A stretch of DNA of 64,000 bases from an uncultured SAR86 cluster bacterium. Lineage in GTDB: Bacteria; Pseudomonadota; Gammaproteobacteria; Magnimaribacterales; AG-339-G14. Below, piece after piece: positions 4,718-29,307 of the stretch (the stretch's first letter is position 1; every line of letters starts with the position of its first letter). Made by a program: the position numbers and the translations under genes. The notes under the pieces are model-generated. The model ran no database searches, was not told the origin of the DNA, and saw only the letters and a list, made by a program, of their open reading frames with translations. The stretch spans positions 124,001 to 188,000 of the forward strand of contig CACILL010000001.1 in the NCBI GenBank assembly GCA_902587545.1, in the 5' to 3' direction.

Positions 4718-5725
4718 CTACTTCAATAACGGTTTCCACCATTTCTCATTATCTAAATACCAGTTAACTGTTTTTTCTAATCCCTTATCAAAGGACATAT
4801 TAGGGCTCCACATAAGCTCTTTCTTTAAGAAGGAAGAATCAATAGCGTAAGAGGTATCATGGCCTGGCCTATCTTGAACAAAAGAAATTAGATCTGAAAA
4901 ACTGTTTTCTTTTTTGATTTTTTTTGTTTTGTCAAGAATGTCGCATATTTTTTTCACAATAGATAAGTTGGTTAAATGATTTCCTCCTCCTATTAGATAT
5001 GTTTCCATTCTTTTACCTTTTTTTGCAATCAGTTCCAATGCGGTCACATGATCATTAACATGAAGCCAATCTCTTTTCTGAAGGCCATTTCCATAAATTG
5101 GTATGTTTTTATTAGAAATTGCAGAGATAATAATTGTGGGAATTAATTTTTCTGGATGTTGAAACTGACCGTAATTGTTGGAACAATTTGTAATTATATA
5201 TTCGAGATCAAAAGTTTTTGCCCATGCTCTTACAAGATGATCAGAGCTTGCTTTAGATGCTGAATATGGAGAACTTGGGCTATATCTGGTTTTCTCAGTA
5301 AATAATTTTTTAGATTTACCTAAATCGCCAAAAACTTCATCAGTTGAAACATGTAAAAATAAAAAATTATCTTTTATTTGCTTTAATTCTTTTGATGCCT
5401 CTAAAAGATTAAAAGTCCCTAGTATATTGGTTTCTATAAATCTTCTTGGTCCTTTTATTGATCTGTCGACATGCGTTTCTGCTGCAAGGTGCATCAAAAA
5501 GTCCGGCTTAACATCTAACAAAATCTTTTTGATTTTATTTTTTTGTAAAATAGAGCAATTTAAATGAGTTAGGTTTTTTCTTTTTTTAAGTTCTGGAAGA
5601 GATGTTTTACTTCCTGCATAAGACAAGTTATCGATTACGAAGATTTCATTTTTTTTATTTCTAGACAAATGTCTACATAAATTTGAGCCTATAAAACCCA
5701 GTCCACCAGTAACAAGATATTTCAT
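4718..5725 (-). CDS. rfbB: dTDP-glucose 4,6-dehydratase
   Basis: Converts dTDP-glucose to dTDP-4-keto-6-deoxyglucose, the branch point for deoxy and amino-deoxy sugars. It is an extended SDR of 335 residues: GGLGFIGSN NAD-binding loop at 7-15, catalytic T128-D129-E130 (STDEVFGD), and Y154xxxK158 in YSASK. It lies 58 nt downstream of rfbA on the same strand. No rfbC or rfbD (rhamnose) genes are in the window. The product more likely feeds the QdtA/QdtB/QdtC-like genes at 20.0-22.0 kb. Confidence 0.95.
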   Translation of the reverse strand: MKYLVTGGLGFIGSNLCRHLSRNKKNEIFVIDNLSYAGSKTSLPELKKRKNLTHLNCSILQKNKIKKILLDVKPDFLMHLAAETHVDRSIKGPRRFIETNILGTFNLLEASKELKQIKDNFLFLHVSTDEVFGDLGKSKKLFTEKTRYSPSSPYSASKASSDHLVRAWAKTFDLEYIITNCSNNYGQFQHPEKLIPTIIISAISNKNIPIYGNGLQKRDWLHVNDHVTALELIAKKGKRMETYLIGGGNHLTNLSIVKKICDILDKTKKIKKENSFSDLISFVQDRPGHDTSYAIDSSFLKKELMWSPNMSFDKGLEKTVNWYLDNEKWWKPLLK

Positions 5726-5783: not shown

Positions 5784-6653
5784 TTAATTTCCGATTAACT
5801 TCCTTAAATAGTCGCCGTACTCTGTTTTAGAGTACTTTTGAGCTTGTCTGGAAACATCATCCTCGTTTATCCAATTATTTTTAAAAGCTATTTCTTCAAG
5901 GCAACCTACTTTTAAACCTTGTCTTTTTTGAATAATTTCAATGAATTGACTTGCCTCAATAAGTGAATTATAAGTTCCAGTATCAAGCCAAGCATAACCT
6001 CTTCCTAGTTGCTCAACATTTAAATTTAACCTTTTAAGGTAGATATTATTTATTGAAGAAATCTCAAGTTCTCCCCTTTTGCTTGGTTTTACAGATTTTG
6101 CAATATCAACGACGTTTTCGTCATAAAAATACAATCCCGTAACAGCGAGATTAGTTTTTGGATTATTTGGTTTTTCTTCGATAGAAATTAAATTATTGTT
6201 TGAATCAATATTTGCAACTCCAAAATCTTGTGGATTAGAGACTTGATAAGTGAAAATTGTAGCCCCTGAGTTTTTACACGCATTCTTTAAATTCCCTGTG
6301 AGGTTTTGACCATAAAATATATTATCTCCAAGAATCAATGATATAGCTTTGTTTTCAATAAAACTCTCTCCAATGATGAAAGCTTCAGCAATTCCTTTTG
6401 GCTCTTTTTGAATGGCATATCTCAAATCTATTCCATATGAACTTCCATCCCCTAAAGTTCTTCTAAAGGATTCTTGATTAAATTCATCTGTGATGATTAA
6501 AATTTCTCTGATTCCTGCAAGCATTAAAACGGATAGAGGATAAAAAATCATAGGCTTATCAAAAATAGGTAATAGTTGCTTAGAAACGCCTGAAGTTATT
6601 GGAAAAAGTCTTGATCCCTTTCCTCCTGCTAAAATAATTCCCTTAGAAGTCAT
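5784..6653 (-). CDS. rfbA: Glucose-1-phosphate thymidylyltransferase
   Basis: Makes dTDP-glucose from glucose-1-phosphate and dTTP. The 289 residues open with the nucleotide-binding signature LAGGKGSRLFPIT and KQLLPIFDKPMI; LGDNIFYG carries the metal aspartate, and EEKPNNPKT and RGYAWLDTGT are also typical of RmlA. It is the first gene of the rfbA-rfbB pair, divergent from the glycosyltransferase at 6811. The promoter must lie in the 157-nt gap between them. Confidence 0.95.
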   Translation of the reverse strand: MTSKGIILAGGKGSRLFPITSGVSKQLLPIFDKPMIFYPLSVLMLAGIREILIITDEFNQESFRRTLGDGSSYGIDLRYAIQKEPKGIAEAFIIGESFIENKAISLILGDNIFYGQNLTGNLKNACKNSGATIFTYQVSNPQDFGVANIDSNNNLISIEEKPNNPKTNLAVTGLYFYDENVVDIAKSVKPSKRGELEISSINNIYLKRLNLNVEQLGRGYAWLDTGTYNSLIEASQFIEIIQKRQGLKVGCLEEIAFKNNWINEDDVSRQAQKYSKTEYGDYLRKLIGN

Positions 6654-10481: not shown

Positions 10482-11333
10482 ATGAATTTTGATACTAAAG
10501 AGTTTGTTCTTGATGAAAAGACTTTAGAAAAGCAAGCAAATTTATTGTCAAAAGTTTTTAAAGACAAAAAAAAATTTAATAAGCTCTATCTTTATTGGCT
10601 TTACAAAAAGAATCCTCTTGGAGAAGCGATAGGATTTGATGCCTACGACAGTAATGGAAACATAGTTGCACACTACGCTGCAATTCCAATTGAATTCGAA
10701 ATTAATAAAGAAAAGAAAAAAGGTGTTCTTGCTTTAAATACTGCAACTTTAAAAAAGGCTGAAGGAAATGGTCTTTTTAAAAAGTTAGCAAATTTAACTT
10801 ACAAAAAAGCCGCTGATCTTGGTTATGATGGGGTTTTTTTAGTAGCAAATAATAATAGTGAAAGAGCATTTTTGAAGTATCTTGGATTTGAAAAGATTTG
10901 TAACCTAGAGGCTAGAATTTCTTTTTTTCCTCCCAACTATAATAATAGTTTTCAAAAATTAGATTTCACAATCAAAAATAAAGATTTCCTTAAATGGAGA
11001 ATGAGTAATCCGAACAAAAATTATAAAGAAATTTATGATTCAAAAAATTCGTTTACCTTTGTAAATGTTATGAACTTTATTAGAAGTATTATCTTTTTTG
11101 AGAAAAGTACAAAATTAAATGAAACTTTTTTAAATAAAAAAAGTTATCTTCCAAGAATTTATCTTTGGATAGGTATTTCAAAAAAGATTAGCTATAAAAA
11201 TGTAATAAGTTTCAATATTCCAGTATTCCTTCGACCTTCGCCCTTAAGTTTATGCTTCAAAGATTTAAAGCATTCAAGAAAATTTTCAAAAAAAGATGTA
11301 CACTTTGAGAGTGTAAATTTTGATGCTTATTAG
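10482..11333 (+). CDS. GNAT-family N-acyltransferase
   Basis: About 283 residues. The N-terminal half has a GNAT pattern: beta-strand VAHYAAIPIEFE, then a loop in LKKAEGNGLFKKLANL standing for the RxxGxG/A acyl-CoA pyrophosphate site, and GFEKICNLEAR after NNSERAFLKYLGF (the usual N-x-x-x-xxxYxxxGF end). The C-terminal half is Lys/Phe-rich and unrecognised. Single plus-strand gene converging on the PIG-L gene with 6 nt between stops. It may acylate an amino sugar; the acceptor is unknown. Confidence 0.72.
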   Translation: MNFDTKEFVLDEKTLEKQANLLSKVFKDKKKFNKLYLYWLYKKNPLGEAIGFDAYDSNGNIVAHYAAIPIEFEINKEKKKGVLALNTATLKKAEGNGLFKKLANLTYKKAADLGYDGVFLVANNNSERAFLKYLGFEKICNLEARISFFPPNYNNSFQKLDFTIKNKDFLKWRMSNPNKNYKEIYDSKNSFTFVNVMNFIRSIIFFEKSTKLNETFLNKKSYLPRIYLWIGISKKISYKNVISFNIPVFLRPSPLSLCFKDLKHSRKFSKKDVHFESVNFDAY

Positions 11334-11339: not shown

Positions 11340-12092
11340 TTAGTTCAAATTTATTATATTTTCTTTCTTCTCTTTGTATCTTGTAACGGTTAAACTTTTT
11401 TCCCAATCTATTGAGGAAATATCAATATCCCTTGTGTAAAAAATCGTTCTAGAAAATAAAGTTTTAATCAAAATAAAAGGGAATATTTTCAACATTGCTA
11501 GGAATTCAGAAGGATAAAAAAATACTACTTTTAAAGAGTTAAACCAACAAAATCTATTTAAAGTTTCTTCTTGGAAGCTTTTTTTATTAATTTTTAAAGG
11601 CTTAAGAAAGTTGATCGGCAATAAAATATTTTCTGAGTAGGTATATGATGGAAAATAATAAGATTCTATAGAAAATTTTTTACTTATTTTGTTTATCAAG
11701 ATTGATAAAGCGTCATGGTCAGGATGCCCTCCTTCAAGGGCTAAAGAAAATATATTACCTATCTCATTTTCAAGAATGTATTTTTCAATAAAGGCTAAAA
11801 TATTTTTAGAGCTTTTGTATAACTTTAAATCTTCTACTGAGAAAAAATCGTTCAAGTAAGTCACTTTATTTTTTTCTATGCCTAAATGTTTTAGGTAAGC
11901 AAGATTCTCAGATCTCCTTTTAAACTTCTTTTTATCATTTCTCTCTGCGCAATATATGAAAGATAAATTATCTTTGTTTTGCTTTACCAGTAGATCTATA
12001 ACAGGAATCAAAGCAAATTCATCATCTAGATGAGGCAATACAATCAAATTATTTTTCAAGGAATTAGAAAGAAATTTTCCTAAAATTTTCAT
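11340..12092 (-). CDS. PIG-L (LmbE) family deacetylase
   Basis: Zn-dependent N-deacetylase family that acts on GlcNAc-type groups. Residues 20-25 are PHLDDE, the zinc-binding PHxDDE motif, and EGGHPDHDAL (near residue 117) carries the second HPDHD motif. 250 residues, the normal size. It is the last gene of the long minus-strand glycan operon, 1 nt after the membrane protein's stop. A deacetylase beside acyltransferases suggests an N-acetyl group is removed and replaced. Confidence 0.85.
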   Translation of the reverse strand: MKILGKFLSNSLKNNLIVLPHLDDEFALIPVIDLLVKQNKDNLSFIYCAERNDKKKFKRRSENLAYLKHLGIEKNKVTYLNDFFSVEDLKLYKSSKNILAFIEKYILENEIGNIFSLALEGGHPDHDALSILINKISKKFSIESYYFPSYTYSENILLPINFLKPLKINKKSFQEETLNRFCWFNSLKVVFFYPSEFLAMLKIFPFILIKTLFSRTIFYTRDIDISSIDWEKSLTVTRYKEKKENIINLN

Positions 12093-12093: not shown

Positions 12094-13566
12094 TTAGTTT
12101 TCTAAGGAAAGTTTATATATTTTATCTTTGGATGAAGCATCGTTTTCCCAAAGAATTTCAAATTCTTTAAAAAAGTAATTTTCTCTTACAAGGCTTAGTT
12201 CTTTTTCAGTACCCAAATAAAAAATATACTTCTTATAAACAGCTTTAAAAGTTTCTGAAGAGTAATCGTTTGGAATATTTATCAAATGCATACATGCTTT
12301 TTTGACATGCCAATAGTAAAACCTCGGCTTGGAACAGGCTAATAGTTCATTTTCATAATTTTCTTCAAAAAAATCTATTGCTTCATAATAGCCTGAAAAG
12401 TCTGTTCTAAGTTTTGAAGTTTCAAAAGATTTATCATCAATTTGATTTATGAAAAAATAAATAAAACTAAAAAAAATAATAAATAAAAACATTGCTAAAG
12501 ATTTTATTGGATTGTAATCCCAATACGTCAATAAAGTTAAAACAAAGAAAAAATATGGGATAAGGAAGAATCTTTGAGAATTTATCCCCAAAAGGGAAAT
12601 GAAAAACAAACTTCCTAAAATTGTAAGAATACTCAAGATTAATAAATCTTTATTTGATTTTAGAATAAATCTAAAGTTGTAAGCTATTAGAAAAGCAAAA
12701 ATTGAAAAAATTATGACTTTGAATATCAAAAACGAATCTACAGAGAAATATTTTTCATGAAAAAAAGGAAAAGAAAAAAGATTTACAGCATTGAAATATA
12801 TATTTTGAAAAAAATTATCAAATAACAAAGTATTTTGAAGGACATCATCTAAAATCTTTTTTTGTAAGAAAAAAATATAGGCGCAAAAACTTACTATAGG
12901 AGCAGAAATTAGGGCCAGAAATAGATTTAAATCTTCCTTATTATATTTTCGCCTAATAAGAATAAGTATTAAAAAAGCCAGAATAAGTGCAATAACCTGA
13001 ATTCTAAAAAAAATCAGAAATAGACCCAAAAAAAATACGGAAAATAAAGATAAATTACTTAATTTGCTTGAAAGGCCTTTCCATACAATGCAAAAATAAA
13101 TTAGCATCAATGGGAAGAAAAATCCTTCTCCGTTAAAATTAGTCATATTTCGATAAAATATAGGCAATATAAATACCGAACCTATTAATAAGGCAAAAGA
13201 CAATAATTCGTTTTTCTTTATTAGGCCGCTTTCTCGAAAAAATCTATATGCAATAAAAAATGTATTTATTTGTAAAAAGAAATATAAGAAAAACCAATAT
13301 TTCCCTGATAATAGTTTTGTGGATGCGATTACAAATATTTGCGAGACTTGAGGAGAAATCAGTTTTCTAACAGGATCATAAACTGCATCTTTTAGATCCA
13401 TATTTTTAAGAAAATAATCTGCAGAAGCTATATAAGCCACCCCATCATTAGGAAAAAGTATTTTTAAATAAATTAAAAAATATCCTAAAGAAAGTCCTAT
13501 GGACGAAGCAATAATGATTATAAGATATTCTTGAAAAAAATTTTTGCTTGATAAAAAATCTTTCAT
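12094..13566 (-). CDS. Polytopic membrane protein, possible lipid-sugar-dependent glycosyltransferase
   Basis: 490 residues with about ten to eleven hydrophobic helices up to residue 370, then a soluble C-terminal domain of about 110 residues (SACSKPRFYYWHVKK region). The long helical bundle with a periplasmic tail is the layout of GT-C enzymes such as GT39/ArnT, but I see no diagnostic motif apart from acidic residues in the first periplasmic loop (FPNDGVAYIASADY). A Wzy-like polymerase is another possibility. Transcribed between the GNAT-like and PIG-L genes. Confidence 0.6.
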   Translation of the reverse strand: MKDFLSSKNFFQEYLIIIIASSIGLSLGYFLIYLKILFPNDGVAYIASADYFLKNMDLKDAVYDPVRKLISPQVSQIFVIASTKLLSGKYWFFLYFFLQINTFFIAYRFFRESGLIKKNELLSFALLIGSVFILPIFYRNMTNFNGEGFFFPLMLIYFCIVWKGLSSKLSNLSLFSVFFLGLFLIFFRIQVIALILAFLILILIRRKYNKEDLNLFLALISAPIVSFCAYIFFLQKKILDDVLQNTLLFDNFFQNIYFNAVNLFSFPFFHEKYFSVDSFLIFKVIIFSIFAFLIAYNFRFILKSNKDLLILSILTILGSLFFISLLGINSQRFFLIPYFFFVLTLLTYWDYNPIKSLAMFLFIIFFSFIYFFINQIDDKSFETSKLRTDFSGYYEAIDFFEENYENELLACSKPRFYYWHVKKACMHLINIPNDYSSETFKAVYKKYIFYLGTEKELSLVRENYFFKEFEILWENDASSKDKIYKLSLEN

Positions 13567-13603: not shown

Positions 13604-14401
13604 CTACAATATCTCAGTAACTTCTGATCCCAAAATCGAAAATATTTGTGAATTACTCTCGAAGTTACCAAACATTCTAAATTTATTTTTGATTATCTTT
13701 GGCGTGTAAAAATTGTCCAAAAAATCTGGAAAAATTAATAAAGAGAAATAGAATCTATGATTTATTTTTGATATGAGACTTGCGATCTTAATTTTATCTC
13801 CTCCAGAGAAGTAAACAAGAATTTTTAAAGGAATACCAAACAATGAGGTACTTTTAAAGCAAAAGTAATATTTTTCTTTTTGATGAATAATTTGAAACCA
13901 GTTTAAATCTGCCCTTAAAAAATAAGTTTCAGGAACTTTGCCTAGAGAAGAATGGTCAATACTTTTTGTTTTATTTTTTCTAAAAGATAAAAGGTTAAAA
14001 AATCCAATTTTAAAGCAGCTTCCGTAAGAATGTTTTTTATATTTTAAAGCCTGCAGAATTTTTAACATCTTCTCATTAGGAGTAATATTAAGTATGTAAT
14101 TTGAAACCATTTGCTGACCTTTCATGAGAAAAGTTAAGCTCAAATTCCTGTGTTTTGAAGAAACAAAAAAATAAGAAGGTGCATAAATTTCCTTATCGCA
14201 ACCTGCCACCTTGAAAAGAATCATGGCGCCTTCTATCTTTTGCTCTACATAAAGCAAACAAACTTTTGTTGATTCATGATCAATAACTTCCAAAAGGTCT
14301 AAAAAAAATTTTTCAGATCTATTTGGAAATTCCCTTTGAAATTTTTTACTGAGTTCTTGCTGATTAAAATCAGATGAAATTTCTATTTTCCAATTTTTCA
14401 A
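13604..14401 (-). CDS. GNAT-like acyltransferase of the ACP/FkbH module
   Basis: 265 residues. The first half looks like a GNAT domain (VCLLYVEQKIEGAMILFKVAG, then a long helix at SLTFLMKGQQMVSNYIL and ALKYKKHSYGSCF); the second half is unrecognised. It directly follows a discrete ACP gene, so it is a candidate for transfer of an ACP-bound acyl group to a sugar. The only in-frame start before an upstream stop is TTG at 14401, lying inside a tandem octamer repeat, and no ribosome site is visible. The family call is tentative. Confidence 0.55.
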   Translation of the reverse strand: MKNWKIEISSDFNQQELSKKFQREFPNRSEKFFLDLLEVIDHESTKVCLLYVEQKIEGAMILFKVAGCDKEIYAPSYFFVSSKHRNLSLTFLMKGQQMVSNYILNITPNEKMLKILQALKYKKHSYGSCFKIGFFNLLSFRKNKTKSIDHSSLGKVPETYFLRADLNWFQIIHQKEKYYFCFKSTSLFGIPLKILVYFSGGDKIKIASLISKINHRFYFSLLIFPDFLDNFYTPKIIKNKFRMFGNFESNSQIFSILGSEVTEIL

Positions 14402-14421
14402 TTTTTCAATTTTTCAATTTT
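14391..14421. repeat. Tandem 8-bp repeat (CAATTTTT, about 3.9 copies)
   Basis: Cytosines recur at 14391, 14399, 14407 and 14415, giving nearly four perfect copies of CAATTTTT (AAAAATTG on the coding strand). The array fills the short gap between the ACP stop codon and the next gene and contains that gene's TTG start. An octamer is not a multiple of three, so gain or loss of a copy shifts the frame upstream of the gene. Confidence 0.85.
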
Positions 14422-14423
14422 CT

Positions 14424-14654
14424 TTATTTTTTTCTTTCTTCAATTAAACCAACTATAGCTTCAAGAGAGTTCATTATTTCAAAGTCTTCGGGTTCAATGG
14501 ATATATGAAAATCACTTTCTATCATCACGGAAATGTGAATTAAGGCAAAAGAATCAAAATTTTCAAATTCATTCAGAGAACTTGAGTTCATTATGTCATC
14601 AGAGTCGACTTCCAAAATTTCTCCAATTTTTATTGCTAATTCAGAAATGATCAT
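14424..14654 (-). CDS. Discrete acyl carrier protein
   Basis: 76 residues, four-helix ACP size. The phosphopantetheine attachment site is Ser35 in FENFDSFALIH, in place of the usual DSL. Acidic overall, as ACPs are. It overlaps the end of its upstream neighbour, the FkbH-like gene, in the sense that FkbH comes second: the ACP stop lies at 14424 and its ATG overlaps the FkbH stop by 4 nt (ATGA). It is not near fatty-acid genes, so it probably carries a dedicated acyl group made by this module. Confidence 0.86.
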   Translation of the reverse strand: MIISELAIKIGEILEVDSDDIMNSSSLNEFENFDSFALIHISVMIESDFHISIEPEDFEIMNSLEAIVGLIEERKK

Positions 14655-16258
14655 GAGGTTTTTGAAATTTTTATAAATTTTTCATCAATTTTTTTATCAG
14701 ATAAATTTTTCAAGTTTAGTTCAAAAATTGTTGTATTTTCATTAATTTCAATATTCTTGAAGGTTTTTCCAAAAATTTTAAAATTTTTTAAGAAATCTCC
14801 TGCTAATTTATTTTTCTTAGTGGAAACAAACTTTCCAGACATCATCTCAAAACCCATTTTTTTTAAATCAAAAATACACCATTCCAAGAAACTTTGCTCA
14901 ATATCTCTACCTAAAATTCGACAACTCATTAAAAAATTGATTACTTCAGCTTCCTTTTCATTTTTTTTTGAAACTAAGATGAGACCAGTAATTCCATGAT
15001 CGCCATAGATATCCTTAACTTGGAGAGGATAGATAATTTCATCTTTAGAAATAAGTTCAAAGATATCTTTCTCATTAAATCTTTTTGTAGTGAAATTAAA
15101 TTGATTTGTCTTTAATGTCATTTGAGAAAGGCGAGGAATTATTGAATCTGAAGGAGCTAGGATTTTTCCTTCCAGCATAAGACTTTTAAGAAATTCTTCT
15201 TTGGATGAAAATTTAGACTTGGCCTTTTCTGCTTTATCTCTGATTTCATATTGAAATTTTTTCGAGGAATCTTCATCTATAACTTTTTCAGTTGAAAAAA
15301 AGTGGTGAAAGTTCTTTTCTAAAAAACTAGGAATTTCATAGATTTTTTCTGGAAAATCTGGAACAAGAACATTTGGCAAGTTATTTCTTACTAAGTCTCT
15401 TTCAAGAGGGTTATCATCTAAAAAAACGCAAGCATCCTCTCCGATATTTATTTGTGAGATTATTTCTTTAATATTTTCACTTTTCTCGTTCCAATTAGCT
15501 TTTACAACTGAAAAATCTTTTAAAGAAATATTCAGATATTTATTTTCATTAAATGCTTCCTCAACATCTGAATAATTATTCTTGCTACAAATTGCAAGAA
15601 GAACTCCATTAGACGATAACTCTTTCAATTTATTTTGAAAATAACTGAAAACATTTCCAGGATATGAAGAGCTATCTGTCTTGATACCATTTGGTCCGTC
15701 TTCGCCGAGTATTCCTCCCCAGAGGGTGTTATCTAGATCAACAATCAGAAGTTTTTTTCTAGTTGAAAAAACAGTTCTTTCAAAGAAATTCAACCATATA
15801 TAGAAATTATTTATTTCCAATGGTGAAATTACAGAACCAATAGAAAAAAAATATTTCGAGGAAAAAAATTTTGAACCTAAAACTTTCTTGAAAGTTTCAG
15901 GATTAAGGTAAAAAATATTTGGGTGATCTTTCGATAATTGGATTACATACTGATTAAATTTATAAATTTCCTCTTCAACATCATCTTTCTCGGTAAGAGA
16001 CAAATAGATTTCAGGAGTGAATAGTCCCAAGATTGACATCTTTTTATCATGAATTGTATTTAAAGATACATCTAAGTTTTTTCTTAATTTACTTATTTCT
16101 TTTAATAAGTCTTTCTTTGAGGGTTGAGGAGTTAGAAAGTTCATCCAAAGATAATTTTCATAAGTCTCATCAGACAGAGGTGAATCATACTCACTGAAAA
16201 CATACTTTTCTTTGGGAAAAAAGTTTTCCAATGTGCTGTTTCTGAAGACAAATATCAT
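14651..16258 (-). CDS. FkbH-like HAD-superfamily protein
   Basis: 535 residues. The HAD motif IVDLDNTLWGGILGEDG (D174 and D176) and ILSKNN-type second motif (AICSKNNYSDVEEAF) are the FkbH signature, as is the C-terminal GNAT-like region with LKTNQFNFTTKRF. Known FkbH proteins load a glyceryl group from 1,3-bisphosphoglycerate onto an ACP, and some load other three-carbon units. Its stop overlaps the ACP start (ATGA), a strong sign that the ACP is its partner. Transcribed before the ACP. Confidence 0.9.
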   Translation of the reverse strand: MIFVFRNSTLENFFPKEKYVFSEYDSPLSDETYENYLWMNFLTPQPSKKDLLKEISKLRKNLDVSLNTIHDKKMSILGLFTPEIYLSLTEKDDVEEEIYKFNQYVIQLSKDHPNIFYLNPETFKKVLGSKFFSSKYFFSIGSVISPLEINNFYIWLNFFERTVFSTRKKLLIVDLDNTLWGGILGEDGPNGIKTDSSSYPGNVFSYFQNKLKELSSNGVLLAICSKNNYSDVEEAFNENKYLNISLKDFSVVKANWNEKSENIKEIISQINIGEDACVFLDDNPLERDLVRNNLPNVLVPDFPEKIYEIPSFLEKNFHHFFSTEKVIDEDSSKKFQYEIRDKAEKAKSKFSSKEEFLKSLMLEGKILAPSDSIIPRLSQMTLKTNQFNFTTKRFNEKDIFELISKDEIIYPLQVKDIYGDHGITGLILVSKKNEKEAEVINFLMSCRILGRDIEQSFLEWCIFDLKKMGFEMMSGKFVSTKKNKLAGDFLKNFKIFGKTFKNIEINENTTIFELNLKNLSDKKIDEKFIKISKTS

Positions 16259-16267
16259 TTCTTTTAA

Positions 16268-16672
16268 TTATTTCTCAAGTAATTCTATTAAACCTAAACT
16301 TTTACTAAAAAAGAATGAAATCAAATTATTATCGAATGCAATTGCACGTGTCGGTTTTAAGACACATATGAATCCTCTTTTCTTTAAATCTGGTTCTTTT
16401 TCTTGAATTGACGAAACTTCAAAGCATAGATGATATGGTCCGGCTCCATTTTTTTTTAATAGACCTAATATCTTTGAATTTTTTGTAGGCTTCACAAGCT
16501 CAATAAGAAGATTCTTATCATTTACTCCAAAAGACAAATCTACTTCTTGCACAGGATCAAATATGTCTTTATTGAAATAGAAACCTAGGTTGCTTAATTC
16601 TTTTTTACTTTGTTCAATGTTGTTAGTAAGAACTCCAATATGGTGAAACTTGTAATCTTGATCATTAGTCAT
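16268..16672 (-). CDS. VOC-superfamily (glyoxalase/epimerase-like) protein
   Basis: 134 residues with a paired beta-alpha-beta-beta-beta fold. FHHIGVLTNNIEQSKKELSNLG gives the first metal histidine, NLLIELVKP a metal glutamate, and GPYHLCFEV the second histidine, similar to methylmalonyl-CoA epimerase. It sits between the sugar transferase (4-nt overlap) and FkbH (9-nt gap). In this place it might epimerise or process the acyl precursor; this is inference. Confidence 0.8.
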   Translation of the reverse strand: MTNDQDYKFHHIGVLTNNIEQSKKELSNLGFYFNKDIFDPVQEVDLSFGVNDKNLLIELVKPTKNSKILGLLKKNGAGPYHLCFEVSSIQEKEPDLKKRGFICVLKPTRAIAFDNNLISFFFSKSLGLIELLEK

Positions 16673-17331
16673 AATTTTTCTTCTAGAAATTTTGAAGGCT
16701 TAGGAAGAGATTTAAATATTTTATATTGGATCTTTGTTTTTTTGTTTAAAACTACATAAATCGTCAGAAACATAAGAAAAAAATACATTTGCAAAGAAGC
16801 GTTATTCGCAAACCATTCTTCAAGTTTTTGTTTGTATGGAGCGATATGTTCTGAATAAAAAACCTCTCTATCTTCTCCTGATAATATCTCTTCTTCATTT
16901 CTAAAAATAATAGAACCTATTCCTGAAAGTCCCGGCTTTTTCGAAAAAATTATTTTTTTTGATTCATTCTCATAAAAAGCTAAGGTTTCAGCTGTACAAG
17001 GTCTTGGGCCTATAAAAGACATATCTCCCAAAAAAATATTAAAAATCTGGGGTAACTCATTTATTTTGGAAGTTCTTAAAAAATGACCCAATGGGAGAAT
17101 TCTTGGATCATTTTCTACCGTAATCGTACCGCCAGTCATATTTGGACTATCTTTTTTCATCGTTGCGAATTTAAAAATACTGAAAGTTTTTAAATCCTTT
17201 CCAATTCTTTTTTGACTGTAAAAAACTTCTCCTTCTCCAGTAAATTTAAGCAAAGGAATTATTAACAAAAAAATTGGAAGTAAGAAAATAAGAGAAATAA
17301 GGCTAAAGAGGAGATCAAAAACTCTAATCAT
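16669..17331 (-). CDS. Bacterial sugar transferase (polyprenyl-phosphate phosphoglycosyltransferase)
   Basis: Starts glycan assembly by moving a sugar-phosphate to undecaprenyl phosphate. 220 residues: a hydrophobic N-terminal reentrant helix (about 5-28), then KRIGKDLKTFSIFKFATM, LRTSKINELPQIFN and GDMSFIGPRP, and KPGLSGIGSI. There is no WbaP-type N-terminal membrane domain, so it is of the small monotopic (PglC-like) kind. The usual Asp-Glu dyad (SLDELPQ) reads Asn-Glu here. It is the only initiating transferase seen in the island. Confidence 0.9.
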   Translation of the reverse strand: MIRVFDLLFSLISLIFLLPIFLLIIPLLKFTGEGEVFYSQKRIGKDLKTFSIFKFATMKKDSPNMTGGTITVENDPRILPLGHFLRTSKINELPQIFNIFLGDMSFIGPRPCTAETLAFYENESKKIIFSKKPGLSGIGSIIFRNEEEILSGEDREVFYSEHIAPYKQKLEEWFANNASLQMYFFLMFLTIYVVLNKKTKIQYKIFKSLPKPSKFLEEKL

Positions 17332-17338
17332 AAGAAAT

Positions 17339-18022
17339 TTATCTTGTAAGTCTTTTTCTTAAACTTCTCATAATTCCTCCAATGCCCTTTTCACCATCAG
17401 GATCGAAATAATGAAGAAGTAAAGTTGTTCTGGTTTGAAAAGGCTTCATTTTTAAAAGGTAGTTTCCATGTAATGTTTGTCTACCCAAAAATAAAATGGG
17501 TCTGTGGTCTTTGAAATCTGATATTTCGTATAATTTTATTTTTAATAAAAAATAAAAGAAAAACCTTATTGAAAAAATTTTTGTATAAACCTTGCCTAAT
17601 ATATTTAGCAAAATATTTTTAGGCTCTTTTCTGATTTTAGGAAAAGTGATTAATTCTCCAGAAAATTTATATTCCCCATTAGGTATTTCTATCGGAACAA
17701 CTACAGTAAACCTATGCGAATCAAAGTGCATCCGAAGGGCCTCTGATGATTGGCCGTCTTTAACAATTCTTAAAACTGAATAAAAGTTTTTCTCTTTAAC
17801 TTTTTCAAAAAAAATACTTTCGTGTAATTTTTCTAATTCAATTTTTGATAATTGAAGCATATTGGCAATTTTTTCTCCGTCTTGAAAATCTCCGTAGTAG
17901 GTATTATCTGAACAAGAATTGGATATTAACTTTAGAATTTCGTCACGTTGTAATTTTTCAATAGGTTCTAAGTACGTAAAACCTTTAGTTTTTAGATCTT
18001 CCACATTTTGAGAATTAATCAT
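17339..18022 (-). CDS. Probable 2-oxoglutarate/Fe(II)-dependent oxygenase fold protein
   Basis: 227 residues, no family I can name. A plausible facial triad is present: H99-x-D101 in RMHFDSHRF, H185 in TLHGN, and R198 in QTRTTLLLHYF, 13 residues after the last histidine, where 2OG enzymes hold the Arg that binds 2-oxoglutarate. Beta-strand-rich segments (FTVVVPIEI, LITFPK, RPILFLG) agree with a cupin-type barrel. Overlaps the aminotransferase stop by 4 nt. It might hydroxylate a sugar or its acyl group. Confidence 0.55.
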   Translation of the reverse strand: MINSQNVEDLKTKGFTYLEPIEKLQRDEILKLISNSCSDNTYYGDFQDGEKIANMLQLSKIELEKLHESIFFEKVKEKNFYSVLRIVKDGQSSEALRMHFDSHRFTVVVPIEIPNGEYKFSGELITFPKIRKEPKNILLNILGKVYTKIFSIRFFFYFLLKIKLYEISDFKDHRPILFLGRQTLHGNYLLKMKPFQTRTTLLLHYFDPDGEKGIGGIMRSLRKRLTR

Positions 18023-19158
18023 GAAATTGCCTTTTTTAATTCAATACATACCTTTTCAGCATCTTTTTGGGTCATTAAGGTGTGGAGAGGAAGAGTTATT
18101 TCTCTATCAATAATCTCAGTTGAGAAAGGAGTTTTAGATTTAGAAAAATCATTTTTATAAGCACTGAAACTCCATGGAGCTGGGTAATGCATGGTTGTTT
18201 GAATATTTTTTATTTTTAACTTCTCTACAATTTTATTTCTTTCTATCCCGTGCGGAAGTAGAACAGGCATTATGTGATCTACCGATAATAAATCCTTATT
18301 TTCAAGTGCTGCTTTATGAGGAGTAAGGACATTTACAGGTAAATTTTCTAAATAAGTCAAAAGAATTTTTCTTCTCAATTTATTTTTATTTTTTATTTTT
18401 TTAATCTGTTCAATTCCTAAAGCTGCTCTAATCTCGTCAATTCTATAATTTAGTCCAATTTCTGAAACGTCATAAGAAAAAACTCTACCCTTCTCTCTAT
18501 CCAAAGTAGATGAAGTCATGCCATGAGATCTTATCCTCTTAAGTAAATCTTTTTTATTCTTAGAACTTACAGCTCCACCTTCTCCTGTAGAAATATTTTT
18601 ATTGCTATAGAAAGAAAAAGTACCGAAGTCCCCAATGCTCCCGCAACTTTGTTTGTGTATTTTTGCCCCAGGGGCATGAGCAACATCCTCTATCAAAACA
18701 ATTTTTTTCGATTTGCAAAATTTCTTTATTTTAAAAATATCTTTGCAAGGTATACCTGCGAAATGAACCAAAATGCAAGCTTTTGTTTTTTTTGTTGTTA
18801 CTCTTTTTACATCCTCAAGAGAAGGTGACCATTCTGTTAGAGAGGAAACATCACATAAAATAGGATTTGCACCCAATGCTTTTACGACATTAAAATCTGA
18901 TACGAAAGTCAATGCAGGAACTATCACTTCATCACCTCTTTCGATCTTAGAGGCAATCAAAGCCAGATGCAGAGCTGCTGTACATGAACTTACTGCTACA
19001 GCTTCAGCTTCATCATTTAAAAGATTTCTATTGATCTTTTCTTCGAAGCTTTCAGTCACAGCTCCATTTGTAAGCCATCCTGATTTGACAACCTTTGCTA
19101 CTGCCTTAAGTTCTTTTTGATCGAAATCACTCTCGAAAATTTTGATATTTTTTTTCAT
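18019..19158 (-). CDS. DegT/DnrJ/EryC1/StrS-type sugar aminotransferase (first copy)
   Basis: PLP enzyme that installs an amino group on a keto-sugar nucleotide. 379 residues: SCTAALHLAL phosphate-binding region near 58-67, IEDVAHAPGA near 156-165, and the PLP lysine K187 in FSFYSNKNISTGEGG. The start is ATG, 1 nt after the upstream FkbM stop. It differs clearly from the second DegT protein at 20038-21135, so two amino sugars, or two positions on one sugar, may be made. It could supply the amine for the perosamine-like or 4-amino series. Confidence 0.9.
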   Translation of the reverse strand: MKKNIKIFESDFDQKELKAVAKVVKSGWLTNGAVTESFEEKINRNLLNDEAEAVAVSSCTAALHLALIASKIERGDEVIVPALTFVSDFNVVKALGANPILCDVSSLTEWSPSLEDVKRVTTKKTKACILVHFAGIPCKDIFKIKKFCKSKKIVLIEDVAHAPGAKIHKQSCGSIGDFGTFSFYSNKNISTGEGGAVSSKNKKDLLKRIRSHGMTSSTLDREKGRVFSYDVSEIGLNYRIDEIRAALGIEQIKKIKNKNKLRRKILLTYLENLPVNVLTPHKAALENKDLLSVDHIMPVLLPHGIERNKIVEKLKIKNIQTTMHYPAPWSFSAYKNDFSKSKTPFSTEIIDREITLPLHTLMTQKDAEKVCIELKKAIS

Positions 19159-20037: not shown

Positions 20038-21135
20038 TTATAGAGAAGAATTTAAATTCTTAACAACATAATGAACTTGATCCATTGTGAGGTTTGGGTT
20101 AAGAGGGAGACTGAATACTGTTTTGGATATGTTTTCCGTAACGGGGAAAGAATTTTTTTTGAAATTTAATCCTTCAAAGGCCTTTTGTAAATGAGGCGGA
20201 ATAGGATAGTGAATGATTGATTCAATACTTTTACTTTTTAGGTAATCAAGAATTTTATTTCTTTTTTTATGCCTTACGCAAAATAGATGCCAAGCGTGTT
20301 CGGAGCTATCATTTGAAACAGGAAGAATAAATTTAGAATTATCTAGCTCATTTAAATAAATTTCTGCTATTTTTTTTCTTTTAAGATTTTCTGATTTTAA
20401 ATTTTTTATTTTTAAACTTAATACAGAAGCTTGAAGAGGGTCCATTCTAGAATTGAAACCAGGAATTTCATTTTCATATTTCTTGAGAGATCCATAAGAA
20501 CTTAATGACTTTATCTTTCGATAAAGCCTTTTCGAATTAGTGGTTATGGCTCCAGCATCCCCGAAAGCACCTAAATTTTTTGCTGGATAAAAGCTCCAAG
20601 CAGTTAGGTCTCCTATTGATCCTACAGGGTTACCTCTATATGAGGCCCCGTGAGCTTGGGCAGCATCTTCAATAATCTTTAAATTATTTTGTTTTGCAAT
20701 TTTTTTTATTTTCCTCATTTCACATGGTTGGCCATACATATGAACAGGCATAATTGCTTTGGTTTTTTTTGTTATTTTATTTTCAATTTTCTCAACATCA
20801 ATATTGAAAGAATCGTATTCAGAATCAATTGGTACAATTTTTGCACCTGTTCTGAAGATGGCTAACCAAGAGGCGATAAAGGTATGAGATGACACAATGA
20901 CCTCATCACCCTTTCCAATTTCAAGTGATTTTAGTCCTAAAAAAAGGGCATCAAGTCCATTACCGGTAGAAACACAATAATTAGATCTACAAAACTTGGA
21001 AAATTTATTTTCGAACTGTTCAACTTCTTCTCCGCCAATATATCTTCCAGATTTTACTGAAGATAATATTTTCTCTTCTACCTTACTTTCAATTTCTAAG
21101 TAAGATTTTTTTAGATCTAGAAAAGGAACCTTCAT
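20038..21135 (-). CDS. DegT-family dTDP-3-keto-6-deoxyhexose 3-aminotransferase (QdtB/FdtB-like)
   Basis: 365 residues. STGNGLDALFLGL (near 57), IIEDAAQAHGA (near 154) and PLP lysine K186 in SFYPAKNLGAFGDAG are typical of the VioA/FdtB/QdtB branch. It overlaps the QdtA-like ketoisomerase stop by 4 nt (ATGA) and lies two genes after a hexapeptide acetyltransferase, the exact QdtA-QdtB-QdtC set. Expected product: dTDP-3-amino-3,6-dideoxyhexose. Whether the sugar is Fuc3N or Qui3N cannot be read from sequence by eye. Confidence 0.9.
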   Translation of the reverse strand: MKVPFLDLKKSYLEIESKVEEKILSSVKSGRYIGGEEVEQFENKFSKFCRSNYCVSTGNGLDALFLGLKSLEIGKGDEVIVSSHTFIASWLAIFRTGAKIVPIDSEYDSFNIDVEKIENKITKKTKAIMPVHMYGQPCEMRKIKKIAKQNNLKIIEDAAQAHGASYRGNPVGSIGDLTAWSFYPAKNLGAFGDAGAITTNSKRLYRKIKSLSSYGSLKKYENEIPGFNSRMDPLQASVLSLKIKNLKSENLKRKKIAEIYLNELDNSKFILPVSNDSSEHAWHLFCVRHKKRNKILDYLKSKSIESIIHYPIPPHLQKAFEGLNFKKNSFPVTENISKTVFSLPLNPNLTMDQVHYVVKNLNSSL

Positions 21136-21545
21136 TTTTTATTTAAAGAAATTAAGAAATCATCATAATCTCGATAGTAGTCTTTTTCCTTATAGAGATC
21201 AGAAGCCAGAACTAAGCAAACTGCATCAGAAGAAAAATTACTTAACTCTCTCCATATCATTGGGCAGATGAATAAACCTTCCTTTTCTGAATTTAAGTTA
21301 AAATTTTTCTTATTATTTCCATCATCAAGCAAAATATCAAAACTTCCTTTTATTGCAATAATTAGTTGCTTTAATTCCTTGTGAGCATGACTACCCCTTA
21401 TGGTGTCTTTTAAATTTTTGTAAAGATAATAAATCCTTTTTATTTCGAAAGGAATTTCTTTATTATTTTCAATGGCGCACAAACTACCCCTATTGTCGGA
21501 GAATTCCGGAAGTTTTATCAATTTACAATCTTCAATAGTCATCAA
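21132..21545 (-). CDS. dTDP-4-keto-6-deoxyglucose 3,4-ketoisomerase, cupin type (FdtA/QdtA-like)
   Basis: 137 residues, a single cupin. R50-G51-S-H53-A-H55-K (RGSHAHKEL) is the FdtA/QdtA/WxcM catalytic block, followed by [16 protein letters not shown] and WRELSNFS. The enzyme moves the keto group from C4 to C3 of the RmlB product. Overlaps the acetyltransferase before it by 14 nt and the aminotransferase after it by 4 nt, so the three are translationally coupled. Confidence 0.9.
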
Positions 21546-22002
21546 CTTTTCCGATTACCTTTGCAGGATTTCCTATAACAATATCTCCAGGTTTTACATT
21601 CTTTGTGACTACTGAGCCTGCTCCGACCATAGATTTTTTACCAATTTCAATACCAGGTAATATTGTTGATCCCGCTCCGAGTGACGCTCCTGTCTTTATG
21701 ACAGTTTTTGGATACTTTTCAATGTAGGATTTACTCCTAGGAAATGAATCATTAGTAAATGAAACATTTGGGCCAATAAAAACATCATCTTCTATGATAA
21801 TTCCATCCCAAAGTTGTACGCCTGATTTTATAGTTACATTGTTACCAACTATTACTTCATTCTCTATAAATACGTGAGAACAAATATTGCAGTTTTTACC
21901 TAATTGAGCTTTTTCTAAAATTACGCAGTATTGCCAAATCTTAGTTTCTTCCCCAATTGAGGAAGTCAGAACTTCGGAAGAAGGATGTTTAAAAAATTTC
22001 AC
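21532..22002 (-). CDS. Left-handed beta-helix sugar N-acetyltransferase (FdtC/QdtC/WbpD-like)
   Basis: 156 residues built of hexapeptide repeats ([LIV]Gxxxx[43 protein letters not shown]), ending in [14 protein letters not shown], the typical end of nucleotide-sugar acetyltransferases. It would use acetyl-CoA to acetylate the 3-amino group made by the adjacent aminotransferase. Fourth-step partner of rfbA/rfbB. WbpD-like action on a UDP-2,3-diaminosugar is an alternative. Confidence 0.88.
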
Positions 22003-26791: not shown

Positions 26792-27946
26792 TCAAACCCT
26801 GGTAATATAAGTTCTTAATTTATTTACTAATTTAGAAAACCTTCTCCAAAGAAAATTGCTATTGGGATAATCTGAAAAATCTCTCGCAGGCTTTTTTAAC
26901 ATCTCTTCAAATTCATCGTCTGAAAAATCAAGTTTCTTTTTAACATATTCTACATCTTGAAGAAGTTGATTTTTTTCAGATGGAGGTTTTTTTAGTTCTT
27001 CCAGTGCCTCTTCTCTAGTGATTTGATTTGAACAAATCAGTGCCGAAAGATAAGATTTTCTTAAATCATAACCAAACTTTTCTGGTAAGTAATAAGCATG
27101 AAAAAATCTAGTAAATATTGATTCGTAATGTTTTCCTCCATAATCTCTCCAGCCATAAGTATTAATTAACATTTTTTTTGCATCCTCTTTAACATAGTTG
27201 AAATAATTGAGTACAGGAACCCATCTAATTCCGCGAACTATGAAAAGATAAAAATAGTCAAACAAAGTAAGTCTTGGATAGGTCTTCATATCAACATTTT
27301 CAAACTTTTTATTTATATTTTTAATAAGTCTGAAATCTTTTGAATGATATAGCCATTTCTCTGGCATTATGGATTCAGTCACTACATTATTTCCTGCAAA
27401 AATATATTTTATCTTTTCTTTTTTAGCTATTTTCGCAAGAGTTGCCCATATAGCGTGATCTGTAGGAATTTCTATGTTTGCAATTGAAGAGAGCATAAAT
27501 GATTTTTGAATCTTTTTAAATTCGTTCCAATTAAGAACTTCTGTGTAAAGATCTATACCTAAGTCGTTTACTAATTTTTCTACATTTGCAATAGCTAATT
27601 CAGTATTCCAACCATTATCTAAGTGGACAGCTAATGGATTTAGCCCAAACTGTTTTACTAAGTGAGCAACATAAGAACTATCAACACCTCCACTAATACC
27701 TATTAAGCAATGGTAATCTCCTTTACGAGATTTTTTTACCTCTTGGATAAGCTCTTTAAACCTTTTTTTTCCATCTTCATCTATGTGTATTTCTTTTGAT
27801 AGATTGTCATCATAATTTTTACAAAGACTACATCTGCCATCTTTATAAAAGACAATGTTTTGAACTGTTTGATCCATAACACATCTTTGACAAATCAAAT
27901 TTGAGTTTTCTTTTTTCAAAATATTAGGCCTTTGCTGAAAGCTCAT
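26792..27946 (-). CDS. N-acetyl sugar amidotransferase (WbpG/PseA-like)
   Basis: 384 residues. ATP-pyrophosphatase loop GISGGVDSSYVAHL (SGGVDS) near residue 103, with zinc-type cysteines before it (CQRCVMD and CSLCKNYDD). With HisH and HisF partners, WbpG converts a sugar acetamido group to acetamidino, using ammonia made from glutamine. Overlaps HisF2 by 23 nt. The gene trio order hisH2-hisF2-wbpG is that of Pseudomonas aeruginosa O5-type loci. Confidence 0.92.
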   Translation of the reverse strand: MSFQQRPNILKKENSNLICQRCVMDQTVQNIVFYKDGRCSLCKNYDDNLSKEIHIDEDGKKRFKELIQEVKKSRKGDYHCLIGISGGVDSSYVAHLVKQFGLNPLAVHLDNGWNTELAIANVEKLVNDLGIDLYTEVLNWNEFKKIQKSFMLSSIANIEIPTDHAIWATLAKIAKKEKIKYIFAGNNVVTESIMPEKWLYHSKDFRLIKNINKKFENVDMKTYPRLTLFDYFYLFIVRGIRWVPVLNYFNYVKEDAKKMLINTYGWRDYGGKHYESIFTRFFHAYYLPEKFGYDLRKSYLSALICSNQITREEALEELKKPPSEKNQLLQDVEYVKKKLDFSDDEFEEMLKKPARDFSDYPNSNFLWRRFSKLVNKLRTYITRV

Positions 27947-28688
27947 AAATTTCTTTCTCGCTAGGATAACTAATTAATATGGCTTTTCTTTTACCCTGAT
28001 AAATAAAAAAAGAACCCGCTCCTACTGCTGAGGACCCTGCTTGAATAGATTCTTTGAAATGATTTAAAGATCCTGCTCCTCCCATTGATACAACAGGTAT
28101 TCTTAAATTTTTGCAAAAATATTTCAACGCTTTGAGATCATAGCCTTTCATACAACCATCATTATTGACACTATTGATAATACACTCTCCACAATCAAGA
28201 TCTTTTAAAAGTTCAATCATTTCTTCAAAGGTTTTTTTTTGTTTTTTTTGTCCACAGTGAGAAACAACTCTATATTTTCCGAATATATCTTTCTTTAAAT
28301 CAATGCTTGCGACGATACTTTGTGAACCATACAGATTAGCTGCATCGTATACAACACTTGGATTATCGAATAAGCAAGAATTTACTGAAACTTTTTCAAC
28401 TCCTAAGTTAAACAAACTTTCAAAGTGTTCTAAAGAAGACACTCCGCCTCCGTAAGTTATAGGCATAAATGCCTCAGAAACGATTTCCTCAATTTTTTTA
28501 TAATTTGGTTGCTTTCCTTGTTTGGTTGCATTTATATCTAAAAGGCATAGCTCATCAGCTTCTTTTTCGTTAAAAATTTTTACCGCATTTATCGGATCGC
28601 CAATATATCTTCTATCTTTGAATTTAGTGGTTTTAACAAGGCCCTCATCAGCTAAAAGAAGCACTGGTATTACTCTTACTAAATTCAT
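27924..28688 (-). CDS. hisF2: HisF-like ammonia-channel subunit of sugar amidotransferase (HisF2)
   Basis: 254-residue TIM barrel. RVIPVLLLADEGLVKT and YIGDPINAVKIFNEKEADEL are the features that set the LPS-type HisF2 apart from histidine-pathway HisF, which begins RIIPCLDVxxGRVVKG. It passes ammonia from HisH2 to WbpG. A Lys-rich stretch is encoded by A8 and A9 runs (28232-28249) separated by one C. Lies 4 nt after HisH2. Confidence 0.9.
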   Translation of the reverse strand: MNLVRVIPVLLLADEGLVKTTKFKDRRYIGDPINAVKIFNEKEADELCLLDINATKQGKQPNYKKIEEIVSEAFMPITYGGGVSSLEHFESLFNLGVEKVSVNSCLFDNPSVVYDAANLYGSQSIVASIDLKKDIFGKYRVVSHCGQKKQKKTFEEMIELLKDLDCGECIINSVNNDGCMKGYDLKALKYFCKNLRIPVVSMGGAGSLNHFKESIQAGSSAVGAGSFFIYQGKRKAILISYPSEKEIYELSAKA

Positions 28689-28692
28689 TAAA

Positions 28693-29307
28693 CTAATTTT
28701 CTAAGAAATCTTTAAAAAATTCTTTCCCGTATTTATGGCTTTTTTCAGGATGAAACTGAACTCCAACGTTATTGTTATTTTTTAAGCCTGAAACAAAGTC
28801 TATGCCATATTCAGTTTTAAAAAGCACTTCATTGTCTTTATTACTTTCTACAAAAAAAGAGTGAACAAAATAAAATCTTGCGTTATCTATACTATTGAGT
28901 AGTTGAGAATTTTGAGTTTTATAAATAAAGTTCCAACCCATATGAGGGACCTTTAGAGATTTAGAGATATTTTTTCGAAAACTTTTTACTTCTGCATCAA
29001 AAATACCTAGTCCTTCTAAATTTCCTTCCTCACTGTTTAAACACATTAATTGCATTCCCAGACAAATACCCAAAATATGAATGTTTTGGTCTTTTGAAAG
29101 ATCTTGTAACAAATTAAAAATATCTCTATCTTTTAAATTATTAATGGCAGCATCAAATTTCCCAACTCCAGGAAGAATCAAATATTCTGAATTTTTAATA
29201 GTATCTTTTTCAGAAGAAATAATAGGCTCATGTCCCAAAAATTTAACCATATTCGATATTGAACCTAGATTGCCCATTCCATAATCAATTATGACTACTT
29301 TTTTCAT
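28693..29307 (-). CDS. hisH2: HisH-like glutamine amidotransferase (HisH2)
   Basis: Class I glutaminase of 204 residues: DYGMGNLGSISNM at the N-terminus, LPGVGKFD oxyanion strand, nucleophile C82 in LGICLGMQLM, and GVQFHPEKSH with the catalytic His and Glu. Supplies ammonia for the WbpG-type amidotransferase. It is not part of a histidine operon: no hisA, hisB, hisI or hisG is nearby, and the partner HisF is the LPS type. Confidence 0.92.
   Translation of the reverse strand: MKKVVIIDYGMGNLGSISNMVKFLGHEPIISSEKDTIKNSEYLILPGVGKFDAAINNLKDRDIFNLLQDLSKDQNIHILGICLGMQLMCLNSEEGNLEGLGIFDAEVKSFRKNISKSLKVPHMGWNFIYKTQNSQLLNSIDNARFYFVHSFFVESNKDNEVLFKTEYGIDFVSGLKNNNNVGVQFHPEKSHKYGKEFFKDFLEN

Follow-up and report, generated by a model that had tools for sequence, protein, structure and literature searches.

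The window, a 64,000-nucleotide stretch of a contig from an uncultured SAR86 cluster bacterium, contains a single operon in which a discrete acyl carrier protein (ACP) and an FkbH-type protein are embedded among genes for glycan synthesis. The genes are all intact and on the minus strand and are listed here in the order of transcription:

18019..19158, minus strand: DegT sugar aminotransferase (PF01041, 295 bits; closest solved structure ArnB 1MDO, E 1e-46); sugar side
17339..18022, minus strand: putative Fe(II)/2OG oxygenase, 227 aa (H99, D101, H185 and R198 invariant); sugar side
16669..17331, minus strand: PF02397 phosphoglycosyl transferase, 220 aa (PF02397, 153.4 bits, cut-off 27; closest solved structure PglC 8E37, E 2e-23); sugar side
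16268..16672, minus strand: VOC metalloprotein, 134 aa (PF13669, 61.4 bits, cut-off 27; nearest solved chain 3HDP/2QH0, E 2e-20)
14651..16258, minus strand: FkbH-type HAD protein, 535 aa (TIGR01686, 248 bits, cut-off 146.65; 3SLR (BF1531), E 5e-39)
14424..14654, minus strand: discrete ACP, 76 aa, with Ser35 (PF00550, 30.7 bits, cut-off 20.8)
13604..14401, minus strand: GNAT-like acyltransferase, 265 aa, TTG start (GNAT fold over residues 1-102 of the model)
12094..13566, minus strand: 490-aa multi-pass membrane protein, possibly polymerase- or transferase-like to judge from its place in the operon
11340..12092, minus strand: PIG-L type de-N-acetylase (PF02585, 32.8 bits, cut-off 28.2); accessory

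Four-nucleotide ATGA overlaps are found at the junctions of ACP and FkbH, of oxygenase and DegT, and of VOC and transferase. The coordinates agree with the first-pass annotation, which described an ACP overlapping FkbH with a GNAT-like gene downstream and the transferase, VOC and oxygenase genes upstream. Profile searches gave no family match for the 490-aa membrane protein, and scans of the operon for repeats, promoters and terminators revealed nothing above chance bearing on function.

The ACP scores above the PF00550 cut-off and carries a modifiable serine, Ser35, within the carrier motif; serine occupies this column in 57 of 58 related ACPs, and an AcpS-type transferase is encoded in the same genome (PF01648, 42 bits). 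The concern raised earlier that Ser35 might not be open to phosphopantetheinylation was thus not borne out. The FkbH protein belongs to the TIGR01686 family by its score over the curated cut-off, its HAD catalytic aspartates and the family-invariant residues: D174, D176, K259, D281, D282 and C446 are all present, with 97 to 98 of 98 relatives in agreement, and its active-site residues are intact. In polyketide pathways, FkbH and ACP have been assigned to the formation of glyceryl-ACP from 1,3-bisphosphoglycerate (PMC7489565), and by analogy we propose that the FkbH protein of the window is a glyceryl-ACP synthase.

The metal ligand positions of the VOC protein (H11, E58, H81 and E130) are invariant in 36/36 sequences and form a glyoxalase-like H/E/H/E set. 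In human methylmalonyl-CoA epimerase, whose C-terminal end fell outside the alignment, the first three of these positions hold H, E and H. Despite the retained ligands, the protein is neither a true methylmalonyl-CoA epimerase (TIGR03081, 40.2 bits, cut-off 114.95) nor a glyoxalase I (TIGR00068, 15 bits, cut-off 120). Its nearest solved relatives, 3HDP and 2QH0, were deposited as glyoxalase I/lactoylglutathione lyase, and we take them to be CA_C2192 of C. acetobutylicum. We propose, again by analogy, that the VOC protein acts on an ACP-bound 2-hydroxyacyl group; our leading guess for the reaction is epimerization of a glyceryl thioester, comparable to that of methylmalonyl-CoA epimerase.

The GNAT-like protein has no Pfam match, and the proteins at the same position in three other FkbH loci (L117, L037 and L042) match PF00583. 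In the structure prediction, residues 1-102 match structures of GNATs, with a Foldseek E of 7e-5 and, by VIA, a Z of 8.8 at an rmsd of 3.1 over 95, and residues 118-265 are below pLDDT 50, only the N-terminal half being modeled with any confidence. A search of 274 genomes of the class found the protein itself alone; compared with individual loci, it did not match the GNAT of L007 and aligned with the same-position GNAT of L117/L091 at 26% over 97 aa (E 3e-4). Its kinship to other FkbH-linked GNATs thus appears weak and rests on L117 and on position. Deacetylases were found near FkbH alongside long GNATs in five loci (L007, L030, L039, L040 and L042), and among loci with full flanks, the two co-occurred in 5/7 compared with 2/55 cases (p 6e-5, a post hoc comparison). 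The PIG-L de-N-acetylase is a possible source of the acceptor amine, and DegT is another.

The first-pass annotation had taken the genes from oxygenase to GNAT as one module of six, and this did not hold. In a family-mate (L138), the oxygenase and the PF02397 transferase are found beside DegT without FkbH, and in another gammaproteobacterium (G403/L117), VOC-FkbH-ACP-GNAT are found without them, in identical order, standing alone and outside any obvious sugar locus. This separate travel rules out a single six-gene module: the core cassette is VOC-FkbH-ACP-GNAT at 13604-16672, and the oxygenase and the transferase belong with DegT to the sugar side. The oxygenase had no family match in profile searches, and its H99-x-D101...H185...R198 pattern, consisting of a His-x-Asp...His triad and a 2OG-binding Arg, is invariant in six sequences. 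Its model has pLDDT 60 and a best VIA Z of 5.4, with all top rows being 2OG enzymes, and its Foldseek E is at best 0.1, which is not significant.

The linkage within the cassette is recurrent, and the earlier suggestion that the pairing might be confined to this genome can be set aside: FkbH, ACP, VOC and GNAT are found together in other genomes. One locus (L007), from a member of the same taxonomic order, has the arrangement FkbH-ACP-VOC-GNAT beside a deacetylase, its ACP giving no BLASTP alignment with that of the window, and VOC-FkbH-ACP recurs in Bacteroidota, Acidobacteriota, Planctomycetota, Bacillota and others. Among the fetched FkbH loci, 29 of the 32 VOC occurrences shared the strand of FkbH and were no more than 1.3 kb away from it. 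Compared with uniform placement over the fetched flanks, this adjacency has p ~7e-23, a value that is indicative only, as the loci are not independent. The FkbH of the window falls inside a clade of 22 (SH-aLRT 99), 17 of which have a VOC gene. When freestanding FkbHs were sampled by domain in Pseudomonadota (n=42), an ACP was nearby in 35/42 and a VOC in 3/42, and VOC is therefore dispensable for loading. DegT, PF02397, glycosyltransferase or nonulosonate genes surround most of the VOC-FkbH-ACP loci.

We consider it probable that the four-gene cassette serves to build a small 2-hydroxyacyl group on a carrier of its own and to attach this group to an amino sugar within a surface glycan, the hydroxy acid most likely being glyceric acid. 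In such a pathway, AcpS would arm the ACP at Ser35. The substrate of FkbH would be an acyl phosphate of three carbons, most likely 1,3-bisphosphoglycerate, from which the enzyme would strip the phosphate at its HAD site to give glyceryl-S-ACP. The VOC metalloenzyme would then work on the carbon adjoining the thioester, the alpha carbon, in an epimerase-like manner. The GNAT would move the acyl group from the ACP to a sugar amine, presumably in amide linkage; either the DegT aminotransferase would provide this amine or the PIG-L deacetylase would expose it. The transferase, the oxygenase and the other operon genes would build and modify the glycan proper. The best reading is still in line with the first-pass annotation: FkbH and ACP would make a small acyl group bound to the carrier, and the GNAT would move it to a sugar. 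Ser35, the AcpS-type transferase and the conserved pairing do not speak against it.

The loci of Bacteroidota, where the VOC-FkbH-ACP genes adjoin KAS III, a second ACP, an SDR and PglD, raise the prospect of a longer, polyketide-like acyl group. The presence of KAS III and a reductase means that the group may be elongated there and is not necessarily glyceryl everywhere. If the same applied to the window, FkbH, VOC and ACP would provide a starter or extender unit, and housekeeping fatty-acid enzymes would do the rest. For the 3,5-dihydroxyhexanoyl group of F. psychrophilum, KAS enzymes and a reductase are indeed held responsible (PMC6519341). We regard this as unlikely for the window, however, since neither its cassette nor the stand-alone one of L117 has a KAS or ketoreductase gene in it or nearby. 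A different group would also result if the VOC protein were a glyoxalase-type loader or editor, with the thiol of holo-ACP and methylglyoxal forming a hemithioacetal that is turned into lactoyl-ACP; the group would then be lactoyl or a mixture, and FkbH would act on another acyl phosphate. The glyoxalase-like ligands and the deposited names of 3HDP and 2QH0 would fit this, and (R)-lactic acid has been reported in polysaccharides of marine Pseudoalteromonas (PMC3210612). Nevertheless, FkbH already supplies the loading step, the score of the VOC protein is far below the glyoxalase I cut-off and VOC is absent beside most FkbH-ACP pairs, making such a role rather improbable.

It is more doubtful still that the acyl group is destined for a lipid, a protein or a small molecule and that the cassette is in a sugar locus by chance. 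What is known of FkbH comes mainly from natural-product pathways, and the L117 copy of the four genes lies outside any obvious sugar locus, but the sugar genes around most VOC-FkbH-ACP loci, and the place of the window copy within a long operon for glycan synthesis that contains ATGA overlaps, argue for a glycan as the destination.

The first-pass annotation knew of no described pathway with this gene set, and that claim is weakened by two precedents, which also make our own idea of glyceroylation not wholly new. In C. jejuni, fkbH is cj1302 in the flagellar glycan locus, and 11168 puts dimethylglyceric acid on pseudaminic acid; the acid is absent in 12664, where cj1302 is a pseudogene, and in 12661, where cj1301, annotated as an epimerase, is missing (PMC3068675, PMC7099621). 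Strain 12661 lacks several further genes besides cj1301. As in the window, the fkbH of 11168 lies among sugar genes, and as proposed for the window, a group derived from glycerate is carried on an amino sugar, but the product of 11168 is methylated, ends on flagellin and needs Cj1295, and Cj1301 is known as an "epimerase" by annotation. In the ORF lists of the window, we noticed no NeuB-like ORF. The second precedent is the C. acetobutylicum surface carbohydrate locus CA_C2186-CA_C2199, which lists a glyoxalase-like VOC, an ACP, an N-acetyltransferase + HAD phosphatase protein and a sugar N-acetyltransferase (PMC4000134, Table 2). We read the third of these as FkbH-like, and the locus would then have the same kinds of protein among sugar genes as the window, its VOC being the closest solved relative; unlike in the window, the VOC gene is several genes away from the FkbH-like gene, and the paper leaves these genes without a specific role (PMC4000134).

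Individual parts of the proposed pathway have further parallels. Tetronate and methoxymalonyl polyketide pathways (tetromadurin Mad7/Mad8 and Mad14/Mad12) share the FkbH and discrete ACP with an expected glyceryl-S-ACP from 1,3-bisphosphoglycerate, but the tetromadurin product enters a polyketide instead of a sugar amide, and neither a VOC nor a GNAT is described as a partner there (PMC7489565). The accessible parts of two other studies concern small hydroxyacyl groups amide-linked to O-antigen amino sugars: tetronate on perosamine in V. cholerae O1 (PMC3441752) and, for the O-polysaccharide of F. psychrophilum (wfpC-wfpG), a proposed transfer of an ACP-borne acyl to the amino sugar by an O-antigen-specific ACP and acyltransferase (PMC6519341). 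In contrast to the window, these parts name no FkbH or VOC for either group, and F. psychrophilum is thought to use the KAS enzymes and reductase. Our literature searches found no paper combining FkbH, O-antigen and ACP and nothing relevant for FkbH and lipopolysaccharide. A VOC step in an FkbH/ACP setting is undescribed in the searchable literature.

We tentatively suggest, as a possibility that we would not yet call probable, that the FkbH-linked VOCs are a new enzyme family (glyceryl-ACP epimerase/isomerase) acting on ACP-bound 2-hydroxyacyl groups, that they make up, together with FkbH, ACP and an acyltransferase, a widespread transferable cassette glyceroylating surface sugars, and that the crystallized C. 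acetobutylicum "glyoxalase I" is a misnamed member. In many surface glycans, antigenicity and phage sensitivity are determined by small acyl decorations, and for the hydroxyacyl ones among these, the route of synthesis is, to our knowledge, mostly not understood. If our reading is true, FkbH, known from polyketides, would be tied to glycan decoration in many phyla, and the naming of a solved structure (3HDP/2QH0) as "glyoxalase I" would be in question. A VOC family that is annotated but has no role would gain a testable substrate, acyl-ACP, and glyceroyl-type decorations would become predictable from sequence.

The genes and operon described in the first-pass annotation were borne out. The VOC, FkbH, ACP and GNAT genes (the cassette, 13604-16672, minus strand) and their neighbours are a stretch of a long minus-strand glycan operon, in which several gene junctions are ATGA overlaps. 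The window sits on a 680-kb contig of a 1.13-Mb source genome that is 85% complete. A SAR86-like marine gammaproteobacterium is suggested as the source by the genes present and by the small size and AT-richness of the genome.

Genes of the operon stretch (window coordinates; cut-offs are those of Pfam or NCBIfam)
19158-18019, minus: DegT aminotransferase, over cut-off
18022-17339, minus: 227-aa protein, putative 2OG oxygenase
17331-16669, minus: PF02397 sugar-phosphate transferase, over cut-off
16672-16268, minus: VOC protein (Glyoxalase_4), over cut-off
16258-14651, minus: FkbH, over cut-off
14654-14424, minus: ACP, over cut-off
14401-13604, minus: 265-aa protein with a GNAT fold in its N-terminal part, TTG start
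13566-12094, minus: 490-aa membrane protein
12092-11340, minus: PIG-L deacetylase, end of the operon, over cut-off

Positions 14386-14430, between the ACP and GNAT genes, hold about four tandem copies of an 8-base unit (TTGAAAAA on the minus strand); the array extends into the TTG start of the GNAT gene, where slippage could alter initiation. Just past the PIG-L gene, 10482-11333 (plus strand) encodes a second protein of 283 aa that by eye looks like a GNAT and has no NCBIfam match.

The oxygenase, transferase, VOC, FkbH, ACP and GNAT genes had been read as one module placing an acyl group on a sugar; the outline of this reading stands, but its boundary has to be redrawn and the VOC protein was understated. 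With the oxygenase as query, 121 relatives yielded six matches. At locus L138 of a genome of the same family (G022), the oxygenase occurs with DegT and PF02397 genes while FkbH and VOC are absent from the neighbouring genes, and both oxygenase and transferase thus belong to the sugar-building side. The order VOC-FkbH-ACP-GNAT recurs outside any obvious sugar locus in the gammaproteobacterium G403 (L117, 5160-8653), with identities to the window of 34% over 128 aa for VOC, 36% over 495 for FkbH, 22% over 67 for ACP and 26% over 97 for GNAT (E 3e-4). The L117 GNAT matches Pfam GNAT (PF00583), and its relatives directly adjoin FkbH at three loci (L037, L040, L042) and lie two genes away at L122. 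In a genome of the same order (G056, L007), the arrangement is FkbH-ACP-VOC-GNAT, with a polysaccharide deacetylase gene next in line. FkbH is confined to 3 of 101 relatives, a patchy distribution that makes acquisition of the cassette probable.

A scan of named genomes yielded 80 FkbH loci. Among the fetched loci, an ACP almost always adjoins FkbH and a VOC of one family often does too, for example in Bacteroidales (L010, L014, L016, L017, L019, L023), Chryseobacterium jejuense (L025), Bergeyella (L027), Terriglobia (L030), a planctomycete (L055), Bacillota (L033, L044, L059) and Nitrosospira multiformis (L071). With the window excluded, 29 of 32 VOC occurrences were no more than 1.3 kb from FkbH, and all 29 shared its strand. 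Compared with a uniform spread across the ±10 kb flanks this gives p ~7e-23, a value that is no more than indicative, since the loci are related to one another and some of them are short. In the FkbH protein tree the window falls in a 22-member clade (support 99), 17 members of which have a VOC neighbour, its exact position being unsure owing to a long branch. The VOC-neighbour label requires at least 16 changes on this tree, so the partnership was gained or lost many times. In a less query-biased sample, 42 freestanding FkbHs picked from Gammaproteobacteria and Pseudomonadota on their domain scores, an ACP was close by in 35 and a VOC in only 3 among the best-scoring matches listed; VOC is therefore a subfamily partner rather than a general requirement. 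FkbH-ACP pairs also occur in Nitrososphaerota and Asgard archaea (L028, L034, L038, L052, L056, L084), some near DegT genes. Six Bacteroidota clusters (L010, L016, L017, L023, L025, L027) combine two ACPs, KAS III, SDR, PglD, VOC, FkbH, DegT and PF02397; their product is probably a bacillosamine-type sugar bearing a longer hydroxyacyl group.

On the sugar side, the DegT protein is closest to ArnB, a second DegT (20038-21135) to QdtB and the PF02397 transferase to PglC. Four further genes suggest a dTDP-3-amino sugar besides a 4-amino sugar:
5784-6653: RmlA
4718-5725: RmlB
21132-21545: QdtA-like protein, from its sequence
21532-22002: hexapeptide acetyltransferase

A WbuX-type sugar amidotransferase (26792-29307; TIGR03573, 278 bits) with HisF- and HisH-like genes makes an acetamidino sugar likely in the same glycan. 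Elsewhere in the window (41593-42354), a single ORF combines a domain resembling cytidylyltransferases (TIGR00125, 53 bits) with a cupin like that of phosphomannose isomerase, which scores 114 bits, below cut-off, for the GMP_PMI C-terminus.

Judged by conserved residues, the active sites are intact wherever they could be checked. FkbH retains D174, D176, K259, D281, D282 and C446, each identical in 97-98 of 98 relatives; the ACP retains Ser35 (Ser in 57 of 58), and AcpS is encoded in the genome. H11, E58, H81 and E130 of the VOC protein are unchanged in 36 of 36 FkbH-linked VOCs and the clostridial CA_C2192. The nearest solved relative of the window VOC is a clostridial "glyoxalase I", which we take to be CA_C2192. 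The 265-aa protein had no match in a Pfam search, but the N-terminal 100 residues adopt a GNAT fold in its model (Foldseek E 7e-5; VIA Z 8.8), the remainder of which is unreliable. The 227-aa protein has a His-x-Asp...His...Arg pattern, invariant among relatives, as in Fe(II)/2OG oxygenases; its model is poor (pLDDT 60) and the resemblance to 2OG enzymes weak. The cassette ACP is the sole PF00550 match found in the source assembly at a threshold of E 0.01; the fatty-acid ACP is either missing, perhaps lying in the absent 15%, or too divergent.

A metal-bound VOC akin to methylmalonyl-CoA epimerase would be well suited to reactions at the alpha carbon of a thioester, and we propose from family, ligands and linkage that it would epimerise, or otherwise isomerise, glyceryl-ACP. 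The GNAT would then form an amide on an amino sugar supplied by DegT or PIG-L. Polysaccharide deacetylases (PF01522) flank FkbH/GNAT genes at L007, L039, L040 and L042, and among loci with full flanks a deacetylase lies within 3 kb in 5 of 7 with a long GNAT versus 2 of 55 without (p 6e-5, post hoc). This association hints at an acyl swap, the acetyl group being removed and the ACP-borne group added.

Precedents exist for the principle of acyl groups on surface amino sugars. Flagellar pseudaminic acid of Campylobacter jejuni 11168 carries dimethylglyceric acid, for which Cj1295 is required (PMC3068675). Strains 12661 and 12664 are without it; cj1302 (fkbH) is a pseudogene in 12664, and cj1301, "annotated as an epimerase", is missing with other genes in 12661 (PMC7099621). 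The link between these gene losses and the missing acid is ours and was not drawn by those authors. A Clostridium acetobutylicum locus with glyoxalase CA_C2192, ACP CA_C2198, CA_C2199 (one protein listed as N-acetyltransferase + HAD phosphatase) and, in addition, a sugar N-acetyltransferase was interpreted as synthesising a modified surface carbohydrate (PMC4000134). Transfer of an ACP-borne acyl group onto bacillosamine has been proposed in Flavobacterium psychrophilum (PMC6519341), and tetronate has been described on the perosamine of Vibrio cholerae O1 (PMC3441752). Neither a defined VOC-FkbH-ACP(-GNAT) cassette nor a role for its VOC was found in the literature searched, which took in few subscription journals. 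The VOC protein is the part of the cassette most worth testing, and the genes standing alone in G403 (L117, 5160-8653) offer the simplest copy for biochemistry.
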